A stretch of DNA of 41,576 nucleotides from a virus, in IMG/VR virus record IMGVR_UViG_3300044647_001572, positions 1 through 41,576 of that record; one strand, given 5' to 3'. A program made the translations under genes and the position numbers. Below are positions 1 through 41,576 of this stretch, in pieces. Every line of letters starts with the position of its first letter. Position 1 is the first letter of the stretch. The notes under the pieces were generated by a model that saw only the letters and a list, made by a program, of their open reading frames with translations, made no database searches and was not told where the DNA came from.

Positions 1-539
1 CCGGGGATGAAGTACTCGTCGGGGGCTTCGGTGTCAGTCAGCAGATTCAGGGTGGAGTCGATGAAGTCGTCGGCGAACTCTGCGACGGTGCGGACCAGGC
101 CGTCGAACACGGTGCCGCCGTTGGATGTTCCGATGAACACACCGGACTTGTCCTCAATGGAAATGACCAACGTGCCCGAGCGCAAGTTGGCGCCGTCCCA
201 CGGCTCCGGGTCGCCCTCCAGATAGCGGGTACACACCAACGACAGCTCGGAGTCCTCAAGCAGGATCTTCGCCATGTCATGGAACGTCGCCCACCGTGAG
301 GACACCACACCCCACACCACACCGGACTGCGCGGCCTCAATAAAGCTCAGCGGCTTGACGACGACAGACCAGTTCGACTGATCGAACGTGTCATCCCACT
401 GGGTGATGTCGAGCGGGTCGTCAGGGATGGTGATTAAGGGGTTGTGCTCGCGCACCAGCTGCAGGTGCAGAGTGGTAAGCAAGATCCACGTGACAGGGCC
501 GGCTAGGAGCCATGAGCGCGGGAATTGCAGTGCGGCGGG
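1..539 (-). CDS. Gp37-like minor tail protein, middle part (continues at 41576)
   Basis: An open frame reading PAALQFPRSWLLAGP and onward to EYFIPG at base 1. Joined to base 41576 it continues as FYATNAEWPYVVYRTGENSG without loss of frame, which is the expected family sequence. No good start codon with a ribosome site is visible near 539. TTG or GTG codons occur within the first 35 codons (in the region reading WILLTTL and LVREHN), so it is either recoded from the N-terminal part, reinitiated, or dead. Conservation looks high, with no internal stops across 277 codons when the circle is closed, which argues against long decay. Confidence 0.7.
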
Positions 540-552
540 GAGTCATTCAAAG
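540..552 (-). other. Break in Gp37-like gene: Leu codon, TGA, Leu codon (possible hop site)
   Basis: On the coding strand the last sense codon is CTT (552-550), followed by TGA (549-547). The family sequence resumes with CCC at 539, directly preceded by CTC (542-540). The 10-nt gap also carries a TGA in the +1 frame (545-543), so a simple +1 shift at CTT TGA would terminate. A ribosome hopping from CTT to CTC, both leucine, would give FLPAALQFP, as expected for the family. A 10-nt insertion mutation or translational reinitiation are the plain alternatives. Confidence 0.4.
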
Positions 553-990
553 GAATGGATTCGACCACACGCTGTAGAACTTCAAGTTCTCGTAGTCGTG
601 GGCGAAATCCATTACCAATACATCATCACCATCCTCTCGTGATTCCACGATCGCCTTATCAAGACGACCTGACCAACGAGCGGACCCGCAATAATCCACG
701 GTGATATGAACGTTGCGGCCTTCGCCGCGATCAATACGGCCCTGGGAGTCATGCACCCACTGCGCCGCCGGATGATCAAACGGGATCTCGATCTGCCCCG
801 GCCCCGTGTCGTTCGACACCCAGCTGAACGACGCGGCATACTCGATGCCCGAGATCACATGCTGCAGATTCCACTCGCCGTCCCACAGCTTCACCTCGGG
901 GGCATCGCGACGGACCCGGTCCTGCGCGGCCTTCGTCTCACGGGTCAACCGCAAAATCTCAGTGCATTGCCGCTCCAACGGCAGCGTCAT
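547..990 (-). CDS. Gp37-like minor tail protein, N-terminal part
   Basis: About 147 residues matching, from memory, the N-terminal part of the ReqiPepy6 Gp37-like minor tail family found downstream of the tape measure gene in actinophages. It opens MTLPLERQCTEILRL and ends VWSNPFL followed by TGA. The family normally continues without a break into a proline and a QFPR-type stretch. Here that continuation lies 10 nt further on in another frame, beginning at 539. The start is ATG 990, 1 nt past the upstream TGA; GTG 999 is an alternative. It is probably part of the baseplate or tail tip. It may be a separate polypeptide, the first part of a recoded protein, or a frameshifted gene. Confidence 0.75.
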   Translation of the reverse strand: MTLPLERQCTEILRLTRETKAAQDRVRRDAPEVKLWDGEWNLQHVISGIEYAASFSWVSNDTGPGQIEIPFDHPAAQWVHDSQGRIDRGEGRNVHITVDYCGSARWSGRLDKAIVESREDGDDVLVMDFAHDYENLKFYSVWSNPFL

Positions 991-991
991 G

Positions 992-1918
992 TCAAGCACG
1001 AAGCTCCAGCCCCCACGGTCGCGGCCAGCGCCGCGGCTGAACCAGCTGAATCATCGCCCCCGCCGCCGGCGGCTCGCAATACACCGGCAGCGTTTGGCGT
1101 TGCGTGTACGGCGGCACAGGGTATTTGAAAAACTTCCCCCCGAACCGGGCCAGAATGTTCGTGTCGTTCGCCGATCGGGCCATCAACTCGGTCATATCCA
1201 AATCAATGACCATGCCCCCATCCGAGGCGGTGATGTCCGGGCAAGCAATATAGCGTTCCGCGTGCACCCCAGCCGGGAAGCGTTCACCCTTGCCGCCCTG
1301 CCACGAAAAGTCCGGTATCGTCCACAACCCTGCGGTGGCAACCCATTTGATCAGCATCGGGCGCGGGGTGGGGTTCTCGATGACCAGGTTCTGCCAGCCG
1401 TCGTCAGTCCACGTCGCCGACGACACCACATCCTCGGAGTACCAGTCCGGGTTACCGGAACGCAGTTTCAGGATCGGGTCGAGCATCTGGTGAAGGATCG
1501 GGTCTTGCCGGGGTGAGAAGTCGGGCTCTTGGTACTGCACAATGTCCAGATCCCGCCACCCTGACACGTCGGTGGTCACCCGCAGGCGGGCGTACCGGGC
1601 GTTGGTGTCCCACGGGTCCAACTCATAGCCGATCGCCTGAACCAGATAGGACTCGTTCTCCTCGGCGCTGTGGGTGTAGGTCTCCTTGCAGATGAACCGC
1701 AAATCCATATCCCTAGCCAGGATCTTGCGGTTCTTCTGCTTAGCCCCAATGGTTCTCGCACCGGACTTCCAGGTTTGCTTCTCCGGGGAGTCATAAATCC
1801 CGGCCACACCACCCTCAGCCAGATACACGCCGCGGTCGCCGGCACCGTCGCCGTGCACACACAGGTACTCCCCGCCCTGCCCGAAGATCTCAACCCTCGT
1901 GATACCGGGAGACGTCAT
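992..1918 (-). CDS. minor tail protein (distal-tail-like)
   Basis: 308 residues starting MTSPGITRVEIFGQGG at ATG 1918, which shares its A with the tape measure stop (TGATG). The position directly after the tape measure gene is that of the distal tail protein in siphoviruses. It builds the hub joining the tail tube to the tip. The protein is mostly beta-rich with many Trp and Asp residues and no membrane segment. An open frame extends upstream to 2065, but that part overlaps the tape measure coding region and lacks the family sequence. Assignment rests on gene order and general resemblance to actinophage minor tail proteins. Confidence 0.75.
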   Translation of the reverse strand: MTSPGITRVEIFGQGGEYLCVHGDGAGDRGVYLAEGGVAGIYDSPEKQTWKSGARTIGAKQKNRKILARDMDLRFICKETYTHSAEENESYLVQAIGYELDPWDTNARYARLRVTTDVSGWRDLDIVQYQEPDFSPRQDPILHQMLDPILKLRSGNPDWYSEDVVSSATWTDDGWQNLVIENPTPRPMLIKWVATAGLWTIPDFSWQGGKGERFPAGVHAERYIACPDITASDGGMVIDLDMTELMARSANDTNILARFGGKFFKYPVPPYTQRQTLPVYCEPPAAGAMIQLVQPRRWPRPWGLELRA

Positions 1919-4900
1919 CAGGGCCTGCCCGAGTACTGCATCATGTCGCGGCGCTTCACCTTGTCCAACTGGCGGATCGCGTCCTGCATGTCCTGGGCGT
2001 AAAGGTTCTGCACCAACGGTGCTCCTTGGCTGGGTGCCGACGACGACGCAGTGATCGCTTCCCACTGCTGGGGGGTCAGGACCGGCTCGGGCCGGTTAGT
2101 CATGTTGATGCCGATGCCCCCGGGCTGCAGCATTCCGCCCTCATCGAAGAGCCCCAACATGTTCGGCAGTGGAAGAGGAGCTGATGGTGGTGGGGTCGCG
2201 GCGGGCCCAGACGTTTCTAAGTTGACCCCGGAGTCGGGGCCTGGAGGCGGGCCGAGTGGCTGCGAGGCAGGCATGGTCATGGGCGTATTCGCGGGCGCTT
2301 CAGCTGGTGCGCCCGGTTGGGGGAACGCTTTCGCGATGGCGTCTGCGCCCATCTTTTCGACCGTGGACAGCGCAGCTTCTTGAATACCGATCTGCGGCAT
2401 GAAATTGCCGTAGTCATACCCAAGCCAACGAGGCATCCCGAACGGAGACAGCTGCTCCATCAACGCATCCGCGCCGATACCCGCCATCTGGAACCCATAC
2501 GACGACAGCCGTTTAGCGGTGTTCCCCAACAGTTGGATGCCGTAGCCCGCCGCCGCGGAGGCGGCCGGTGCTGCAGCCGCACCAGCACCAAACGACCCTG
2601 CTGCCGCCGCCCCGGTGATCGCGGCTGACACGGCCATCTGGGCAAGGTTCGTGCCGGTGTCAATGAGGCCGCCGACAACCTCGTTACCCATGCCGATGAA
2701 GTTCGCGAGACTGGATGTGCCGGCCACCCCGGTGTTACCCGCCGAAGCCGGAACGAATCCCAGCGAGCGCACGAAATCCATGCCGTAGTTCGGCTGGCCT
2801 TGCCCGGATGCCAGTGCTGCGTTGGGCGGGCCGGGAGGCGCACCGGCCGCGGAGCCGTGCAGCAGCGAGGCGGGGTCAATGCCTTGATCGGCCAGCGACT
2901 GCTGCTGCTCCGGGTTCAGAACCAACTCGTTCTCACCGGTTGCGTTCTCCACCAGAGTCATACCTGGGGGCAGCACACCGCCGCGGTCATACCGGTAGAA
3001 CCGTTGCGTTAAAGCCGGGTCAAATGCGCCTGTCCCGCCGATGCCGCGGTTTGCGGCAGCGGAGTTACTGCCCCAGTTGAAGTTCGTTCCACCGGGCAGC
3101 GTGGCCTGCATGTGTTCGCTGTTGAAGCCAACGTTGAACGCACCGGGTGCTGTGCCGGGGCGGAAACCGCGCGAGGCCAGCCACTCTTGTGCGTTGTGGG
3201 TCGACATCTCTCGGCCCGCGGTGGGCCTGCCGTCCATGATGTTAACCAAGTCCTCGATGGCGCTGCTGCAGTCGGCCAAACCTTGAGTGAGGTCCGCGGC
3301 AGAGGTTTGCGAATACTGGCCGGCCGGAACAGCAGACAACAGTGTCGCGTCGGTGCGGCGGCCGAGTTGGGCTGCTGCGGCGCGGGAGTTGAAGTAGCCA
3401 CGGCCCGCCGTCCCCAGCACGCCGCCACCCAGGCCGCCACCCGTCACATTGCCGCCGGATGCCCCGGCCATACCGCCGAGGATGCTTTGCGCCGCGTTCC
3501 CACTACCGGGAACCATCGGGGTGCCGCTGGACATGTTGCCGCCGCCGTCCGGGCCGCCGAACAAACCGTCAACAGCGCGACCGGCGAACGGGCCCAACAG
3601 GATTTCGGCGGGACTGCGTCGACCTAAATCGAAGTCGCTGGGTGTGGGGATCGCGCTGACCGGGTCGCCGTTGCCCCACTCCATCTGCGAGCGGGCTATT
3701 GACAGCGCACCGAGTGCGGTCACCAGTGCGCCGATCGGGCCGAGTGCGGCGGTCGCCCTCCCGGGCATCAACCCCAGAGCCGCGTTGACACCAGTCAGGG
3801 CCGTCGCAACAGCGGAAATGCCTTGAATAGTCTTGACCGCGGCGAACGCCGCGACCGCTGCGGTGATCAGACCGGGATGCTCACGAAGCAGATTAGCGAT
3901 GCTGCCGAGGACTTCAACGACTTTCGCGGCAGCATCTTTAGCGCCCTCAAAAAAGTCGCGGATCTTGTCCTTGTTCGCGACGATCCACGTATTGAGGTTG
4001 TTCAGCATTTCGGTGATCCGCTGAACCGCCGACTTCAACCCCTCAGTGGCGTCACCGGTCGGGCCACCGAAAATCGCGGCCAGCAGATTCGCCCCTGTGC
4101 GTGCCAAAGAGGTTTGCATGTTGTCGATCGAGCCCTGCAAGGTGTTACCGAGGGCTTTAGCCATGCCGGGAGCGAAACGCTCCACCGACTTCTGCAGCAT
4201 CTCAAGAGTGATCTCGCCGTCTTCCTGCATCTTGTCGAACTGATCTGCGGTGAGGTTGTAGGACTCTTGAATCCATGAGCGGGCCGGTAGACCGGCCTCC
4301 ATCAGCTGCATGGTCTCTTCGCCGGTCAGCTTGCCCTTGGCGAGAACCTGGTTGAATATCAAACCCATGCGGTCGAGGTCGGTGCCGGCGAAACCCGCGG
4401 CGTCCGACACGTTCTGCATGAACCGTTCAATGTCTTTCGCCCCGGCGCCGATGGCCTGGACGGCGGTGCCGAACGCCTGATCCAAACTGAACGGTGTTTG
4501 ATCTACCGCGGCTTGGACGGCTTTGTTGATCCGGTCGAAGTCTTTCGGGTTGCCCTGTGTGCGAAGGATGGCACGCAGTTTGTTCTGCGCGGTGTCCAAC
4601 GCCACCAGCCGGTCGAACCCGGTCTTCAACGCAGTTCCGACGATCGCGGTGGCGCCCGCTAAACCGACCTGCAAACCAGCCGAAATGCCTTTACCGGCCA
4701 AGAATCCGAGCTTGTTGGACTGTCCTTTCATGTCGGCCCGCCACCCGCTGATGACGCTGCCCAAACCGACTGAACCGGCCCCGGAGGCGAAACTCTTACC
4801 GAAGTCGCTGCCGAGCTGGCGGGCCTTCAACCCTCCGACAACACCCTTGCCGATGACTTGGCCGATGCGTGCACCGATGCGGTCCAGTTTGGTGTTGGGG

Positions 4901-7814: not shown

Positions 7815-8788
7815 TAGGAACCGGCGCCCGTCGCGGCCTCGACGATCTTGCCGTGCTTGCGCTCGTTGCCGTACCGCAACCCGATCTCACCGTAGATCTG
7901 CACCTTCTCTGACGCACCGGTCTTGGCGAGCGGCTCGGCGAAGAAGTGGCCCTTGCCCGGGATCTCCAGGAACGCCGGGGCGCAGTCCTCCAGTGAGGCC
8001 ACGATGATCGTGTCGGCCGGCACGTAGCGCGACAGCACGATGTTGCAGCGACCGAAGTCGGTCTCAAACGTCTGCAGGTTCACACCACCGACGTTGCGGG
8101 AGACCTCCTGGTAGGAGGAGTAGGAGGTGCTCGTGATGAACAGCGAGGTGAGCTTGCGCTTCATCGTCGCGTTCACCATCACGGTGCGGGTCTCGGACTC
8201 CTGAATGCCGCCGTTCTCCCACACCTCCTGCATGAGATCGAGCACGTTGTTCTTGGTCAGAACCGCACCGTTGAGGTCAACGACGTTGGTCTCGATGGCT
8301 TGCAGCACACCGCGGGTCTTGCGGGCCGTGGAGTTGTTCGACGGCAACTGGTAGGTGCCCGAGATGAAGGACTTCTCGACGTCGCGGGCGATCTGCTTGA
8401 ACTCCTGCTGCAGCTGCCACGCCAGCTCATCGTTGACGGCGTTGGGGCCACCCACGAACGGTGCGGACCCAGCGAACTGGTTGGTGGCGGCCTGCTTGGT
8501 GTAGGTGACCGACACCTGCTCCTGGTGGATTTCCAGCACGTTCTGCGCGGCAGCGCGGACACGGGCCCCCGCAGTCGGGGCGTCGGCCCCTTCCAGACGC
8601 TGACGGTCATCCGCAGCGTCACGCAGGTCGTACTGGCTCCACTGGAAGATGGTGGAGTTGACGGGCACACCGCCGGTCAGACCGCCGATGGCGGACAGGA
8701 ACGGGGTGTCCTCGGGGCTGATGTTGAACAGCTCCCCGACGTAGTTGGGCACATCGTAGGTTGTGCCCAAACCGGTGATACCGGCCAT
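7814..8788 (-). CDS. major capsid protein (SU10/DUF5309-like)
   Basis: 324 residues beginning MAGITGLGTTYDVPNYVGEL, right after the scaffold gene. The N-terminal NISPEDTPFLSAIGG, the EVSRNVGGVNLQTFETDFG segment and the C-terminal GEIGLRYGNERKHGKI are, from memory, hallmarks of the SU10-type capsid family (DUF5309) with an HK97 fold. No delta domain is seen because a separate scaffold gene precedes it. It assembles the icosahedral head. Confidence 0.93.
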   Translation of the reverse strand: MAGITGLGTTYDVPNYVGELFNISPEDTPFLSAIGGLTGGVPVNSTIFQWSQYDLRDAADDRQRLEGADAPTAGARVRAAAQNVLEIHQEQVSVTYTKQAATNQFAGSAPFVGGPNAVNDELAWQLQQEFKQIARDVEKSFISGTYQLPSNNSTARKTRGVLQAIETNVVDLNGAVLTKNNVLDLMQEVWENGGIQESETRTVMVNATMKRKLTSLFITSTSYSSYQEVSRNVGGVNLQTFETDFGRCNIVLSRYVPADTIIVASLEDCAPAFLEIPGKGHFFAEPLAKTGASEKVQIYGEIGLRYGNERKHGKIVEAATGAGS

Positions 8789-10125: not shown

Positions 10126-11785
10126 CGGTCAACTCCGACACCCGTTTACCGACAAGCATCTCCGTTGCCGCACCGTTCTGATAGATCCGCACCAGGGCGG
10201 CCGGCTGATCCGGGCTCGCCGGGATCGCGAACTCGCTGCCCTCCACCCCGAGAACCCCGTCGACCATCAGGTGCTCGATCACACCCTGACCGTCGACCCA
10301 GGTCACGAAGTCACCCTCGGAGAACCCGCCCGCTTGGGGCACACCGCGGCCCAGATCCCCGCCAGCCGCCTCAGATTCCGGGGCAGGGGGTTGCGGTGGG
10401 GTGGCTAAACGCTGCAGCAGCGACGACACCCCGGCCCGACGTTTATCGGCCCAGGCCCGCTCCACCGTGGTGGAATCCCAACCCAGTTGCTCCAACGGAA
10501 CTTTCGATTCGGCCAGCCACGGCATCGCCTGCACCGTTTTGATCAGGAAGTCCCCGGCAGCGGACTGCGGTGGGTTCTCCGGGTCACGCCACAACGCATC
10601 CAGCCGGGACAGCTCAGCCGGCGGGGCGTCCAGGTCGTCGCGGATCTGCACCGCCGTCGCCATCGCCCGAGCCAACCGCGGCCCGAAGCAGTCCATCGCG
10701 TAGCGGGCCTCAATGATCAGATCCCGCTCAGCCGCCTCGATCGCATCCGCTGAGGACGGGTTGTCCTGCACGATGCCCAGCGCGTTCAGCGGCAACGACG
10801 ATTCGGAGCAGAACATCGCCGCCAAAGACCGCAACTGGTCGGTGTGCGGCTGCGGGCTTGACTGCGGGAACTGACCCAGCTGCGGCATGTCCCCGGTGTC
10901 CGGGTCACGCCCAGCCGCCCACACCCGGCCAAGGATCGCTTGCCACTGATTCAGCGGCTCACCGTCGGCGTCCACAAACATGGACTCGTCGGCGCCCATC
11001 GCGTACCGCTGGGGGCTGGAGAAGAACTCGGCGTGCACTTCCATGCGGAACAAGGTTCGCAACGCCGAATCCGACAGGCCCATCACCGCCCGCGAGATCC
11101 GCGAACACCCGAACGGGCGGTCAAGGCGCGGCTTGTACGGAATGACCTCCACCGGAAGCCGATCCAACGTGTGCGAAAAGCGGGACAGATTCCACTGCCC
11201 GTCATAAAACGCGGTCGCCGTCACCCCAGGCATGAACAACGCCCACCCGGTCACCCGGCCCAGATCATCCATGTCAGTGATCGTCAACGCGTACTTCAAA
11301 CGGCGGCGGCGGGCATCCCACACCCCGGACGCCAGCAGCGCTGACTGCGAGGAGATCAGAACCTCAGGCTCACCCAGGCTCTCATCGCCCTTAGTGACCG
11401 TCAGGAACGCGCACGAATGCACCAGAGCCGACGTCAACGTCTGAGGCAGTTCAATGTGCATGTCGTTGGCACGCCACACGTCGGTGATCCCGAACCGGTC
11501 ATCCTCATCCCCCGGCACCACGAACCCGTCAAGCTTCAACCGCCGCGAAAGGGTGTCCACCGCTTTCGCCGGCCACCCCAACACCAACTCCAAGTCGGTC
11601 AAATGCGGTGGGATCGCGATCTCAAGGTCTTTGAGCACGTTGTGCTGGTCGTAGTACTGCGCCCGAAGTAGGTTGCGGCGCAACTTCTGCGTCCACACCT
11701 TCCAGCACTCGTTGAACGCATACTTCTCGTCGTCAGTGAGGCCGTTGATCGGGCCGGTGGTCGCAATGAGCTGTGCAATGCTCAC
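10106..11785 (-). CDS. portal protein
   Basis: 559 residues, start GTG 11785 overlapping the terminase stop as GTGA. Size, place after the large terminase gene, and sequence such as LVLGWPAKAVDTLSRRLKLDGF and LGIVQDNPSSADAIEAAERDLI place it in the SPP1 gp6-like portal family. It forms the dodecameric ring for DNA entry at the head vertex. The C-terminal 100 residues are Pro/Gly rich and continue into a small beta domain after residue 480, longer than minimal portals. Confidence 0.94.
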   Translation of the reverse strand: MSIAQLIATTGPINGLTDDEKYAFNECWKVWTQKLRRNLLRAQYYDQHNVLKDLEIAIPPHLTDLELVLGWPAKAVDTLSRRLKLDGFVVPGDEDDRFGITDVWRANDMHIELPQTLTSALVHSCAFLTVTKGDESLGEPEVLISSQSALLASGVWDARRRRLKYALTITDMDDLGRVTGWALFMPGVTATAFYDGQWNLSRFSHTLDRLPVEVIPYKPRLDRPFGCSRISRAVMGLSDSALRTLFRMEVHAEFFSSPQRYAMGADESMFVDADGEPLNQWQAILGRVWAAGRDPDTGDMPQLGQFPQSSPQPHTDQLRSLAAMFCSESSLPLNALGIVQDNPSSADAIEAAERDLIIEARYAMDCFGPRLARAMATAVQIRDDLDAPPAELSRLDALWRDPENPPQSAAGDFLIKTVQAMPWLAESKVPLEQLGWDSTTVERAWADKRRAGVSSLLQRLATPPQPPAPESEAAGGDLGRGVPQAGGFSEGDFVTWVDGQGVIEHLMVDGVLGVEGSEFAIPASPDQPAALVRIYQNGAATEMLVGKRVSELTVGSLGS

Positions 11786-13551: not shown

Positions 13552-13815
13552 TCACCAGGACCGGTCGGTCACGAAGTCGACGCCGGCTGCGACCTTGTCG
13601 GACTTGTCGCGGTTGCACTTGCGGTGGGCGGCCTGAAGGTTGTCCAACGTGTCGGGTCCGCCGCGGTTCACCGGGGTGATGTGGTCGATGGTGAAGGACA
13701 GCGGATCAAGGTGGTGGGCGTGGTAGTTGATGGGTTCGTGGCACACACCGCAGGGCGGTTCGTCTTTGCCGATGATGCGGCGGTGACGATCCCGCAGTGT
13801 GGTGGAGCGTGCCAC
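13552..13815 (-). CDS. HNH endonuclease (packaging-associated)
   Basis: 87 residues. CGVC (C22, C25), the FTIDHITPVNRGG core with the catalytic His at 45, then NLQAAHRKCN (N59, H64, C67) form a complete zinc-supported HNH fold. HNH proteins next to terminase genes in HK97-like phages stimulate cos cleavage with the large terminase. The start is GTG 13815, overlapping the upstream TAG as TAGTG. Confidence 0.93.
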   Translation of the reverse strand: MARSTTLRDRHRRIIGKDEPPCGVCHEPINYHAHHLDPLSFTIDHITPVNRGGPDTLDNLQAAHRKCNRDKSDKVAAGVDFVTDRSW

Positions 13816-22225: not shown

Positions 22226-22626
22226 GCCGGCCATTCGCAGCCCTCTCGATGTTGTTGCGTCGGAACGTGGAAACCGCACCGCAGGCACCGCCCCGGCCCG
22301 ATAGCGGGCATGAACACCGCCCCGGCATCGGTTAACACCACCCACTGGCCGCGGCGGAACACCGGCACCTCGGCCGGGTTGGCGCCCTGGCGGACCAACC
22401 ACCCGAACTTCAACGCATCATCCCGATCGGATTCGATGCTCCGGTGGCACGATTCGCACAACGCCAGAGCGTTAGGTGCGGTGTTGGTGTCGTCGGCTTT
22501 AGATCCGCCCATGCCGCGGGGCCGGCGGTGGTGCAGCTGCACGGGTGCGTTGATTCCGCACACTTCGCAGAAGCCGTTCGCCCGCATGATGACGGTAAAG
22601 CGGACGTGCTTCGGGAACCCACTCAC
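22222..22626 (-). CDS. HNH endonuclease (early region)
   Basis: 134 residues, MSGFPKHVRFTVIMRANGFC, start GTG 22626. CEVCG (C20, C23), LHHRRPRGMGG (H32, H33), N52 and LCESCHR (C57, C60, H61) make a full HNH domain; a C-terminal CLRCGFHVPTQQHREGCEW adds another zinc-like cluster. It may be a homing nuclease or take part in recombination. Distinct from the packaging HNH at 13552. Confidence 0.92.
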   Translation of the reverse strand: MSGFPKHVRFTVIMRANGFCEVCGINAPVQLHHRRPRGMGGSKADDTNTAPNALALCESCHRSIESDRDDALKFGWLVRQGANPAEVPVFRRGQWVVLTDAGAVFMPAIGPGRCLRCGFHVPTQQHREGCEWPA

Positions 22627-40373: not shown

Positions 40374-40824
40374 CGGACACCTCCTGCAGAACCTCGAGGA
40401 CCACCCGGCGCTGCTCCTCGGACAGGGATTGCGCCACGCGGCCTGCGGGGGTGTCGGGCAGTTCGTCGGCGTTTAACGCTTTGAGCAGCTCGGCTTTCTG
40501 CTGCAACGACATCCGGGCGATCCCATCGCGGGCCTGGTCACGCTCCGAGCGTTTCGGGGTTTCCCCCGCTGGCACCCAACGTCCGGGTGAGGTCAGCCAG
40601 TTCGGCTCAGTCGCTGACGGCGCCACCCACTCCAACGTCGGCTGCGCTGCTGGGCGGGCACCCAGATCCCACATCCGTTTCGACACATGCCGGAAGTACT
40701 CGATCGGCATGATCAGCGGCGCACCCTTGACCAACGGCAGGCCCGCGAACATCCACAGAAAAGCTTCCTCCGGATTGTTTGGGTCGCAGTTGTCCCGCGT
40801 CGGGAACTCGCCACGCGCAAGCAT
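40366..40824 (-). CDS. DUF2744-like minor tail-associated protein
   Basis: 152 residues, MLARGEFPTRDNCDPNNPEE. EEAFLWMFAGLPLVKGAPLI then MPIEYFRHVSKRMWDLGARP is the recognised core of the DUF2744 family encoded right after Gp37-like minor tail genes in mycobacteriophages. C-terminal half is helical (LLKALNADELP, LSEEQRRVVLEVLQ). ATG 40824 overlaps the preceding stop as TGATG. Confidence 0.85.
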   Translation of the reverse strand: MLARGEFPTRDNCDPNNPEEAFLWMFAGLPLVKGAPLIMPIEYFRHVSKRMWDLGARPAAQPTLEWVAPSATEPNWLTSPGRWVPAGETPKRSERDQARDGIARMSLQQKAELLKALNADELPDTPAGRVAQSLSEEQRRVVLEVLQEVSGA

Positions 40825-41381
40825 CAATACACCCCTAAATCCCTCAGAGCGGCCACCATCGACTCAATGCGCCCCCACGCCCGCTGGGCTGGGTCTTGAA
40901 GGTTGCGCGGGTCACCGATCGTGGGCACCCACTCCGGGTAGGTTTCGGAATCCCACTTCAACTCGATCTTGCGGGCTCGGTCCACCCAGATCTGCCCGGT
41001 GGGGTCGTTCTCCAGGCTGAAGCCGATGCGGTCGTCCACCCAGAAGTGCCCGAACGGGGGCGGGGCGATCATGAACGGTGAAGCGTCCAGCACTTTCATT
41101 TCGTTGGCGAGAACTGTTCTGGTGGACCAGAATCCCGCCCTGAGCACCATCAGGGCGGCGATCGTGTAACTTTTGTTCGCGCCGTCCATAAAGTATTCGA
41201 AGTATCGGGACCAGCCCGAGTTCTGTGCTCGCTGAGTCGATTTGACGCTTTGCCACGCGAGCACAACGTCCTCATAGATCGGCTTCAAAAGGGTATCAAT
41301 GGTGCCCCCGAGTGACCCGATGAGGACGACGTTGCCGATGATGTCCCCCACCGCCTGGATGGACGCTGAGATCGCTTCATT
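40824..41381 (-). CDS. Gp37-like minor tail protein, C-terminal part
   Basis: Open frame reading NEAISASIQAVGDIIGNVVL at 41381 down to LRDLGVY and TGA at 40824. It is the expected C-terminal third of the Gp37-like family (GGTIDTLLKPIYEDVVLAWQ; FEYFMDGANKSYTIAALMVL; HFWVDDRIGFSLEND). It is in the -1 frame relative to the middle part and lacks an obvious start with a ribosome site; GTG 41351 is a possible internal start. The frame remains open through the hairpin segment at 41399-41440, so a -1 shift there would restore a single protein. Confidence 0.8.
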   Translation of the reverse strand, partial: NEAISASIQAVGDIIGNVVLIGSLGGTIDTLLKPIYEDVVLAWQSVKSTQRAQNSGWSRYFEYFMDGANKSYTIAALMVLRAGFWSTRTVLANEMKVLDASPFMIAPPPFGHFWVDDRIGFSLENDPTGQIWVDRARKIELKWDSETYPEWVPTIGDPRNLQDPAQRAWGRIESMVAALRDLGVY

Positions 41382-41576
41382 CGCTGGTGTGTGCCGGTGT
41401 GGCCCGCGCCCCCCCGGTTTCCCGGGGGGGCGCAGACCACGCCAGGCATCGAGTGCCCTCCGATATTGACCTGCACAGCCTTCGATGGGGAGTTAATGAA
41501 CCGGGACGCTTCGATTCCCGAGTTCTCCCCGGTGCGGTACACCACATACGGCCATTCGGCGTTGGTGGCGTAGAAG
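41285..41576 (-). CDS. Gp37-like minor tail protein, middle part continued
   Basis: Continues from base 1 of the circle: FYATNAEWPYVVYRTGENSG, then VNIGGHSMPGV, after which the family should read NEAIS. Instead the frame enters the GC hairpin (41399-41440), loses similarity, and drifts to a stop at 41285 through unrelated sequence such as HQRMKRSQRPSRRWG. So the family homology of this part ends at about 41438. Confidence 0.72.
   Translation of the reverse strand, partial: FYATNAEWPYVVYRTGENSGIEASRFINSPSKAVQVNIGGHSMPGVVCAPPGNRGGAGHTGTHQRMKRSQRPSRRWGTSSATSSSSGHSGAPLIPF
41399..41440 (-). other. 19-bp GAAA-loop hairpin with C7/G7 runs inside the tail gene
   Basis: In the message sense the arms pair over 19 bp (12 perfect GC-rich pairs plus 7 more with two G-U wobbles) around a GAAA tetraloop; the runs are C7 (41430-41424) and G7 (41415-41409). 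It starts exactly at the GTG of the family motif PGV and, with 17 further nt, forms a 56-nt insert before NEAIS. There is no T-tract, so it is not a normal terminator. The frame before C7 reads GCC CCC CCG, allowing a -1 slip on C CCC CCG. Confidence 0.6.

Follow-up and report, generated by a model that had tools for sequence, protein, structure and literature searches.

A hairpin-bearing insert of 56 nt interrupts a Sipho_Gp37-family minor tail gene (PF14594, phrog_110) in the viral record analyzed here (the window; IMG/VR record IMGVR_UViG_3300044647_001572, all 41,576 nucleotides), and we consider it probable that this insert is an intervening element that is skipped in translation, i.e., by programmed ribosomal bypass. 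The element occurs in five distinct versions on seven contigs of diverged actinobacterial phages, and about 140 other relatives, drawn from IMG/VR and GTDB genomes (GGHSMPGV-NEAIS unbroken), are uninterrupted at both of the sites at which it is found. The reading frame is always broken by the element, yet the protein evolves as if it were whole, which makes a ribosomal jump across the hairpin the most likely explanation. Judging from these comparisons, a transferable hairpin element bypassed by ribosomes is the best reading. The initial annotation of this DNA had proposed a recoding element working by frameshift or bypass; bypass is the best-supported of its options, and the frameshift part fell away, given that the versions have no common single-shift path.

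At this site (the PGV site), the minus strand of the window reads ATG CCT GGC GTG, then GTCTGCGCCCCCCCGGGAAACCGGGGGGGCGCGGGCCACACCGGCACACACCAGCG, then AAT GAA GCG ATC. The insert (41382..41437, minus strand) thus lies between the codons GTG (V) and AAT (N), breaks the gene exactly at PGV / NEAIS and shifts the frame. No copy is present in the ~140 uninterrupted relatives, which have PGV directly followed by NE, and same-site copies were found in L003/L056, L097/L231 and L099/L258. These observations bear out the boundaries, the family residues and the -1 change of frame (56 mod 3 = 2) given in the initial annotation; since GTG occupies 41438-41440 and the insert 41382-41437, its span of 41382-41440 corresponds to GTG plus the insert. 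The two 7-nt homopolymers that it had pointed out, C7 and G7, are both in the insert, and the hairpin that it had described, 19 bp with a GNRA loop, was recovered as well: the mRNA-sense strand forms a stem of 19 bp capped by a GAAA loop (41399..41440, minus strand; 5' arm 41422-41440, loop 41418-41421, 3' arm 41399-41417). The minimum free energy is -64.7 kcal/mol over 101 nt (z = -5.8), and none of 200 shuffled sequences was equally stable.

A search of relatives for the same hairpin at other places, as suggested in the initial annotation, revealed a second site, TGG|GCY (the W site). Three lineages carry inserts at the PGV site, of 56, 56 and 59 nt, and two further lineages carry inserts of 52 and 53 nt at the second site. 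Each of the five begins NNG|GTCTGCGCC; the gaps of the PGV group all have phase 2, and those at the W site have phase 1 or 2. The 56-nt insert of L003 (same contig as L056) shows a handful of differences from the window; one of its pairs is changed from C-G to A-U, and it has a TAG in the upstream frame. L097 and L099 come from two metagenomes and differ at one position in 1900 nt; their 59-nt inserts at the PGV site are identical and carry a TAA in the target frame two codons upstream of NEAIS. A pattern scan detected the shared core GGTCTGCGCC...GGGCGCRGGCC in L243/L257 and L260, at the second site, in a homologous tail gene. The closest uninterrupted kin of these phages read HIRVW|ANPFL (TGG GCC/GCT AAY), so the second-site insert, between TGG and GCY, has a length of exactly 52 nt in L257 and 53 nt in L260; the gap length varies here by 1 nt, with the protein kept on both sides. 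The IMG/VR search relied on specific patterns and may have missed diverged versions. Of the broader hairpin patterns, a first was too loose to be selective, and the later ones returned only this tail gene and unrelated hairpins without the GGTCTG...RGGCC ends or the fold, and a Blast search of isolated phages found no copy of the element. We also considered an actinobacterial chromosomal repeat or terminator hairpin, and set it aside after obtaining 5 weak matches in 396 actinobacterial genomes, the printed alignments of which lack the shared GGUCUGCGCC/GGCGCRGGCC core.

The recurrence also bears on whether the element acts at the level of DNA, as a palindromic mini-mobile insertion that would either inactivate the gene or be precisely excised, so that working phages would lack a copy. 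The palindromic sequence, the same core at two sites, the lack of a protein encoded by the element itself and the loss of sequence identity within about 15 nt of the insert would all agree with such an insertion, and the 'mini mobile hairpin' of the initial annotation is compatible with the evidence, although bypass recoding is better supported. That the element acts only in this way appears distinctly improbable to us, since seven contigs carry it and independent samples yielded identical copies, the downstream halves of long-diverged lineages are still under purifying selection, and each record has a single copy, always in this gene, with none elsewhere in those records.

Next, we tabulated the reading frames through all versions. 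L257 and L260 are without any single-frameshift path, and several versions have stops in both frames; in L097, a frameshift is possible only after the TAA, elsewhere than the place needed in L003. Formally, one -1 shift would suffice in the window taken alone and also in L003. Because there is no path in L257 and L260, because L097 could shift only after its TAA and because the gap phase varies, contiguous decoding is very unlikely as the common mechanism. The same two observations, the target-frame TAA of L097 and the lack of a path in L257/L260, tell against the -1 slip at C CCC CCG raised in the initial annotation. Programmed -1 frameshifting through the insert, which would add ~19-20 residues, is thus very improbable: the window is open in both frames, a C-run is present at the 5' arm and L003 could slip at CCC upstream of its TAG, but L097 would need a different slip site past its TAA, the gap phase differs between versions, and the C-run lies inside the hairpin arm instead of 5-9 nt upstream of the hairpin. 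An assembly or sequencing error at the homopolymers, to which the two 7-nt runs and the contig end 136 nt from the GTG-plus-insert segment might point, is hardly credible, as homologous inserts from other samples keep the break with different run content (CCCCCTAGGG, CCCTCCGGG), a compensatory base pair and lengths of 52-59 nt. A slippage-prone 7/8-nt phase switch, also suggested initially, found support in no relative.

We then examined the conservation of the hairpin. Across the five versions, 96.8% of the helix cells are paired, compared to 42-56% in slid controls, and two stem pairs are changed on both sides (compensatory); with five sequences, and with 15 of 500 shuffles reaching the covariation score of the observed helix, the support from covariation is moderate. 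The insert is ~91-94% identical between versions (about 91% for the window vs. L003) where synonymous sites differ by 0.5-0.7, and no 30-nt windows of the gene are better conserved than those at the hairpin boundary and at a second gap described below (0.97 each vs. a mean of 0.74). By these comparisons, the element is conserved as RNA, not as protein. That the stem extends into the 5' exon is unexceptional at the PGV site, where the exons of 22-24 of 65 relatives pair equally well. At the second site, where the 5' exon pairs with the 3' part of the insert, none of 42 relatives' exons pairs as well for L260 and 6 of 42 do for L257, so that this pairing is suggestive at the W site and not at PGV. 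Exon-insert pairing as a required part of the element was not retained, being weakly supported by the comparison of the relatives' exons.

The interrupted gene itself could be followed across the ends of the record (all parts on the minus strand). Its 3' part (40824..41381), from NEAIS... to the stop, corresponds to the C-terminal part of Sipho_Gp37 (PF14594, E 5e-29; phrog_110) and does not open with a start codon. The middle part up to PGV (41438..41576) runs on over the contig ends to 1-542 with the seamless join TEAPDEYFIP-GFYATNAEWPYVV, its upstream portion (LPAALQFPRSW...EYFIP) lying at 1..542, and the 5' part (...YSVWSNPFL; phrog_110 positions 32-174) lies at 550..1005, as placed by tblastn; the sequence 5' of the hairpin thus reaches across the record ends into window positions 1-1005. 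Since the reading of the tail gene is kept from 41576 to 1 without loss, the record is circularly permuted. It is an apparently complete genome, and no end repeat was found. For the part downstream of the break, dN/dS is 0.10 between the window and L003 and 0.10-0.19 among L257, L260 and L263 (L257 vs. L260: 0.19), similar to uninterrupted pairs. On this measure of sequence change, both halves of the interrupted gene are under purifying selection and the gene still evolves as one.

In the bypass that we propose, ribosomes would translate as far as the codon at the hairpin base (GTG at the PGV site, TGG at the second site) and stall there, upon which the peptidyl-tRNA would detach from its codon; the ribosome would slide across the folded 52-59-nt gap and resume decoding at AAY (or GCY), yielding one full-length tail protein. 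We infer the jump, the take-off and landing codons and the mobility of the element; seen in the sequences themselves are a non-coding gap that is absent from homologues, coding that resumes in another frame, and a stem-loop at the presumed take-off codon. If the join is exact, the take-off codon would be GTG (41438..41440, minus strand), the final codon 5' of the gap in the alignment with relatives, and the hop would lead from GTG to GCG at the PGV site and from TGG to TGA at the W site, with two of three bases alike in each pair. Alternatively, the ribosome could hop from Ala to Ala, taking off at GCC, codon 3 of the gap (41429..41431, minus strand), and landing at the GCN before AAY (GCG, GCG, GCG, GCT and GCC in the five versions), which would leave VCA (PGV site) or VC (W site) as extra residues. 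For this hop the first two bases of take-off and landing codons match throughout (GCC to GCG/GCT/GCC), and 5/5 versions share GTC TGC GCC unchanged, at one and the same codon phase. Under both readings, GCG, the final gap codon (41382..41384, minus strand), would be the landing codon in the window; it is conserved in all three PGV-site versions despite differing bases before it.

To our knowledge, proven long ribosomal bypassing in bacteria and phages is confined to a single gene, T4 gene 60, so that the rules of bypass are known from one example. The 50-nt coding gap of T4 gene 60 (PMC5009743) resembles the present one as a short, non-coding, out-of-frame gap of similar size in a phage gene, with a hairpin at the take-off codon, uninterrupted homologues and a site suspected of being related to mobile introns and homing endonucleases. 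In contrast to the matched GGA/GGA codons of T4, the exact join here would use GTG/GCG and TGG/TGA; no stop directly follows take-off in any of the five hairpin versions (GTC is next), and no Shine-Dalgarno-like motif was seen upstream of landing. The stem is also longer and G+C-rich, the gene is a tail gene, and two sites with five versions compare to one locus. The byp elements of Magnusiomyces capitatus mitochondria (PMC5009743) resemble the proposed element as blocks that are inserted into coding sequence and that translation skips, with imperfect take-off/landing matches tolerated; however, they number 81 copies in 12 genes of a mitochondrion with relaxed decoding, and here we found one copy per phage record, in one gene family. 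A candidate bypass proposed for the terminase, a packaging gene, of the actinobacterial Streptomyces phage Hau3 (cited in PMC5009743) differs by its proposed dependence on a UUA codon, a much shorter gap and the lack of a recurrent hairpin element.

The chief rival to bypass, which we regard as unlikely, is excision at the level of RNA: an endonuclease and a ligase of the host or the phage, or else a small self-splicing RNA of unknown type, would remove the hairpin from the mRNA and join the flanking ends. Any group I or II intron known to us is far larger than 52-59 nt, with a catalytic core of ~200 nt or more, and we know of no bulge-helix-bulge splicing endonuclease from bacteria. The size of the inserts, the lack of an Rfam family at gathering score and the absence of a 3' boundary consensus (GCG|AAY vs. 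TGA|GCY share no sequence) argue against splicing. Inteins do not fit gaps of 52-59 nt that are out of frame and contain stops in several versions. In favor of excision, the boundaries that restore the family sequence are exact at both sites, and a truly spliced intron interrupts the homologous minor tail gene of phage Baka (22% identity, E 6e-18): a 265-nt intron attributed to a group I ribozyme, with the restored mRNA shown by RT-PCR (PMC3706429). Our alignment places it at GG|KS, 5 codons upstream of the hairpin site; unlike the Baka intron, the 56-nt insert consists of a hairpin only. We also observed an intein (...GIWNHN|SIQAVGD) in L005, just upstream of position 3001, 6 codons downstream of the hairpin site. 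The Baka intron and the L005 intein at the same motif suggest that this motif attracts elements needing removal, which speaks for a skipped element as well; with the hairpin included, intervening sequences of three kinds fall within 12 codons, and this indicates a hotspot.

The T4 gap has been proposed to come from a degenerate intron (PMC5009743). A neighboring homing endonuclease cassette like that of T4 is not a general feature: the record of L260 has an HNH gene ~2.5 kb upstream of the element, and the 19-kb record of L003 yielded none. In L354, an HNH endonuclease gene (2595-3545) separates the tape-measure gene from the minor tail gene that precedes the hairpin-bearing tail gene, and the window has two further HNH-domain matches (13594-13752 and 22435-22569, minus strand).

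The chance that these elements form a natural family of long ribosomal bypasses seems to us a little short of even; such a family would be the first outside T4 gene 60 and yeast mitochondria. Five natural versions at two sites, with several gap lengths and close uninterrupted genes, would make the rules of bypass directly testable (the stem as driver, the need for a codon match, the host factors that help). They would also show whether such elements are able to spread as introns and inteins do. If the hairpin were excised from RNA instead, a bacterial virus with a removable RNA of 52-59 nt would be more unusual still. Automatic annotation splits or drops genes of this kind.

Finally, the tail gene contains other breaks. 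A second gap (TGAATGACTC; 540..549, minus strand) separates NPFL, ending in CTT (L), from PAAxQFP, starting with CCC (P), in the window and L003 (CTT-TGAATGA-CTC-CCC); its 30-nt context is identical in L003, and no single-frameshift path leads through it. A 0-frame TGA directly follows CTT, as in none of the hairpin gaps, a target-frame TGA precedes CTC, and CTC as landing codon would be matched to CTT for one Leu tRNA, so that this 10-nt gap looks like the stop-hop layout described in PMC5009743. A plainer account would have translation end at TGA, start again at the neighboring ATG and shift by +1 at CCCC. Every PGV-hairpin lineage carries such an extra break in the EHL..NPFL region, which is open in other relatives.

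These breaks could mean that the gene is split, with two or three separately translated chains that assemble. The predicted structure (mean pLDDT 61) has low-confidence stretches at 148-159 and 362-471, near both break regions, which together with the recurrent extra break would be in line with split chains. We nevertheless consider them quite unlikely, as no ATG, GTG or TTG opens the downstream part in the hairpin versions and no ribosome-binding motif was seen; the first candidate starts (GTG in the window and L003, TTG in L260) lie ~10-27 codons inside conserved sequence and are not themselves conserved. Split chains would also leave the exact boundaries, the recurrent hairpin and its conservation unexplained. 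In L231 (around 8243-8248) and L258 (around 11456-11461), the extra break is a 5-nt one, TTG-TAGTG-AAA, between EHL and KWYSVW, which may be a plain overlap of stop and start, as split chains would have it, or a hop.
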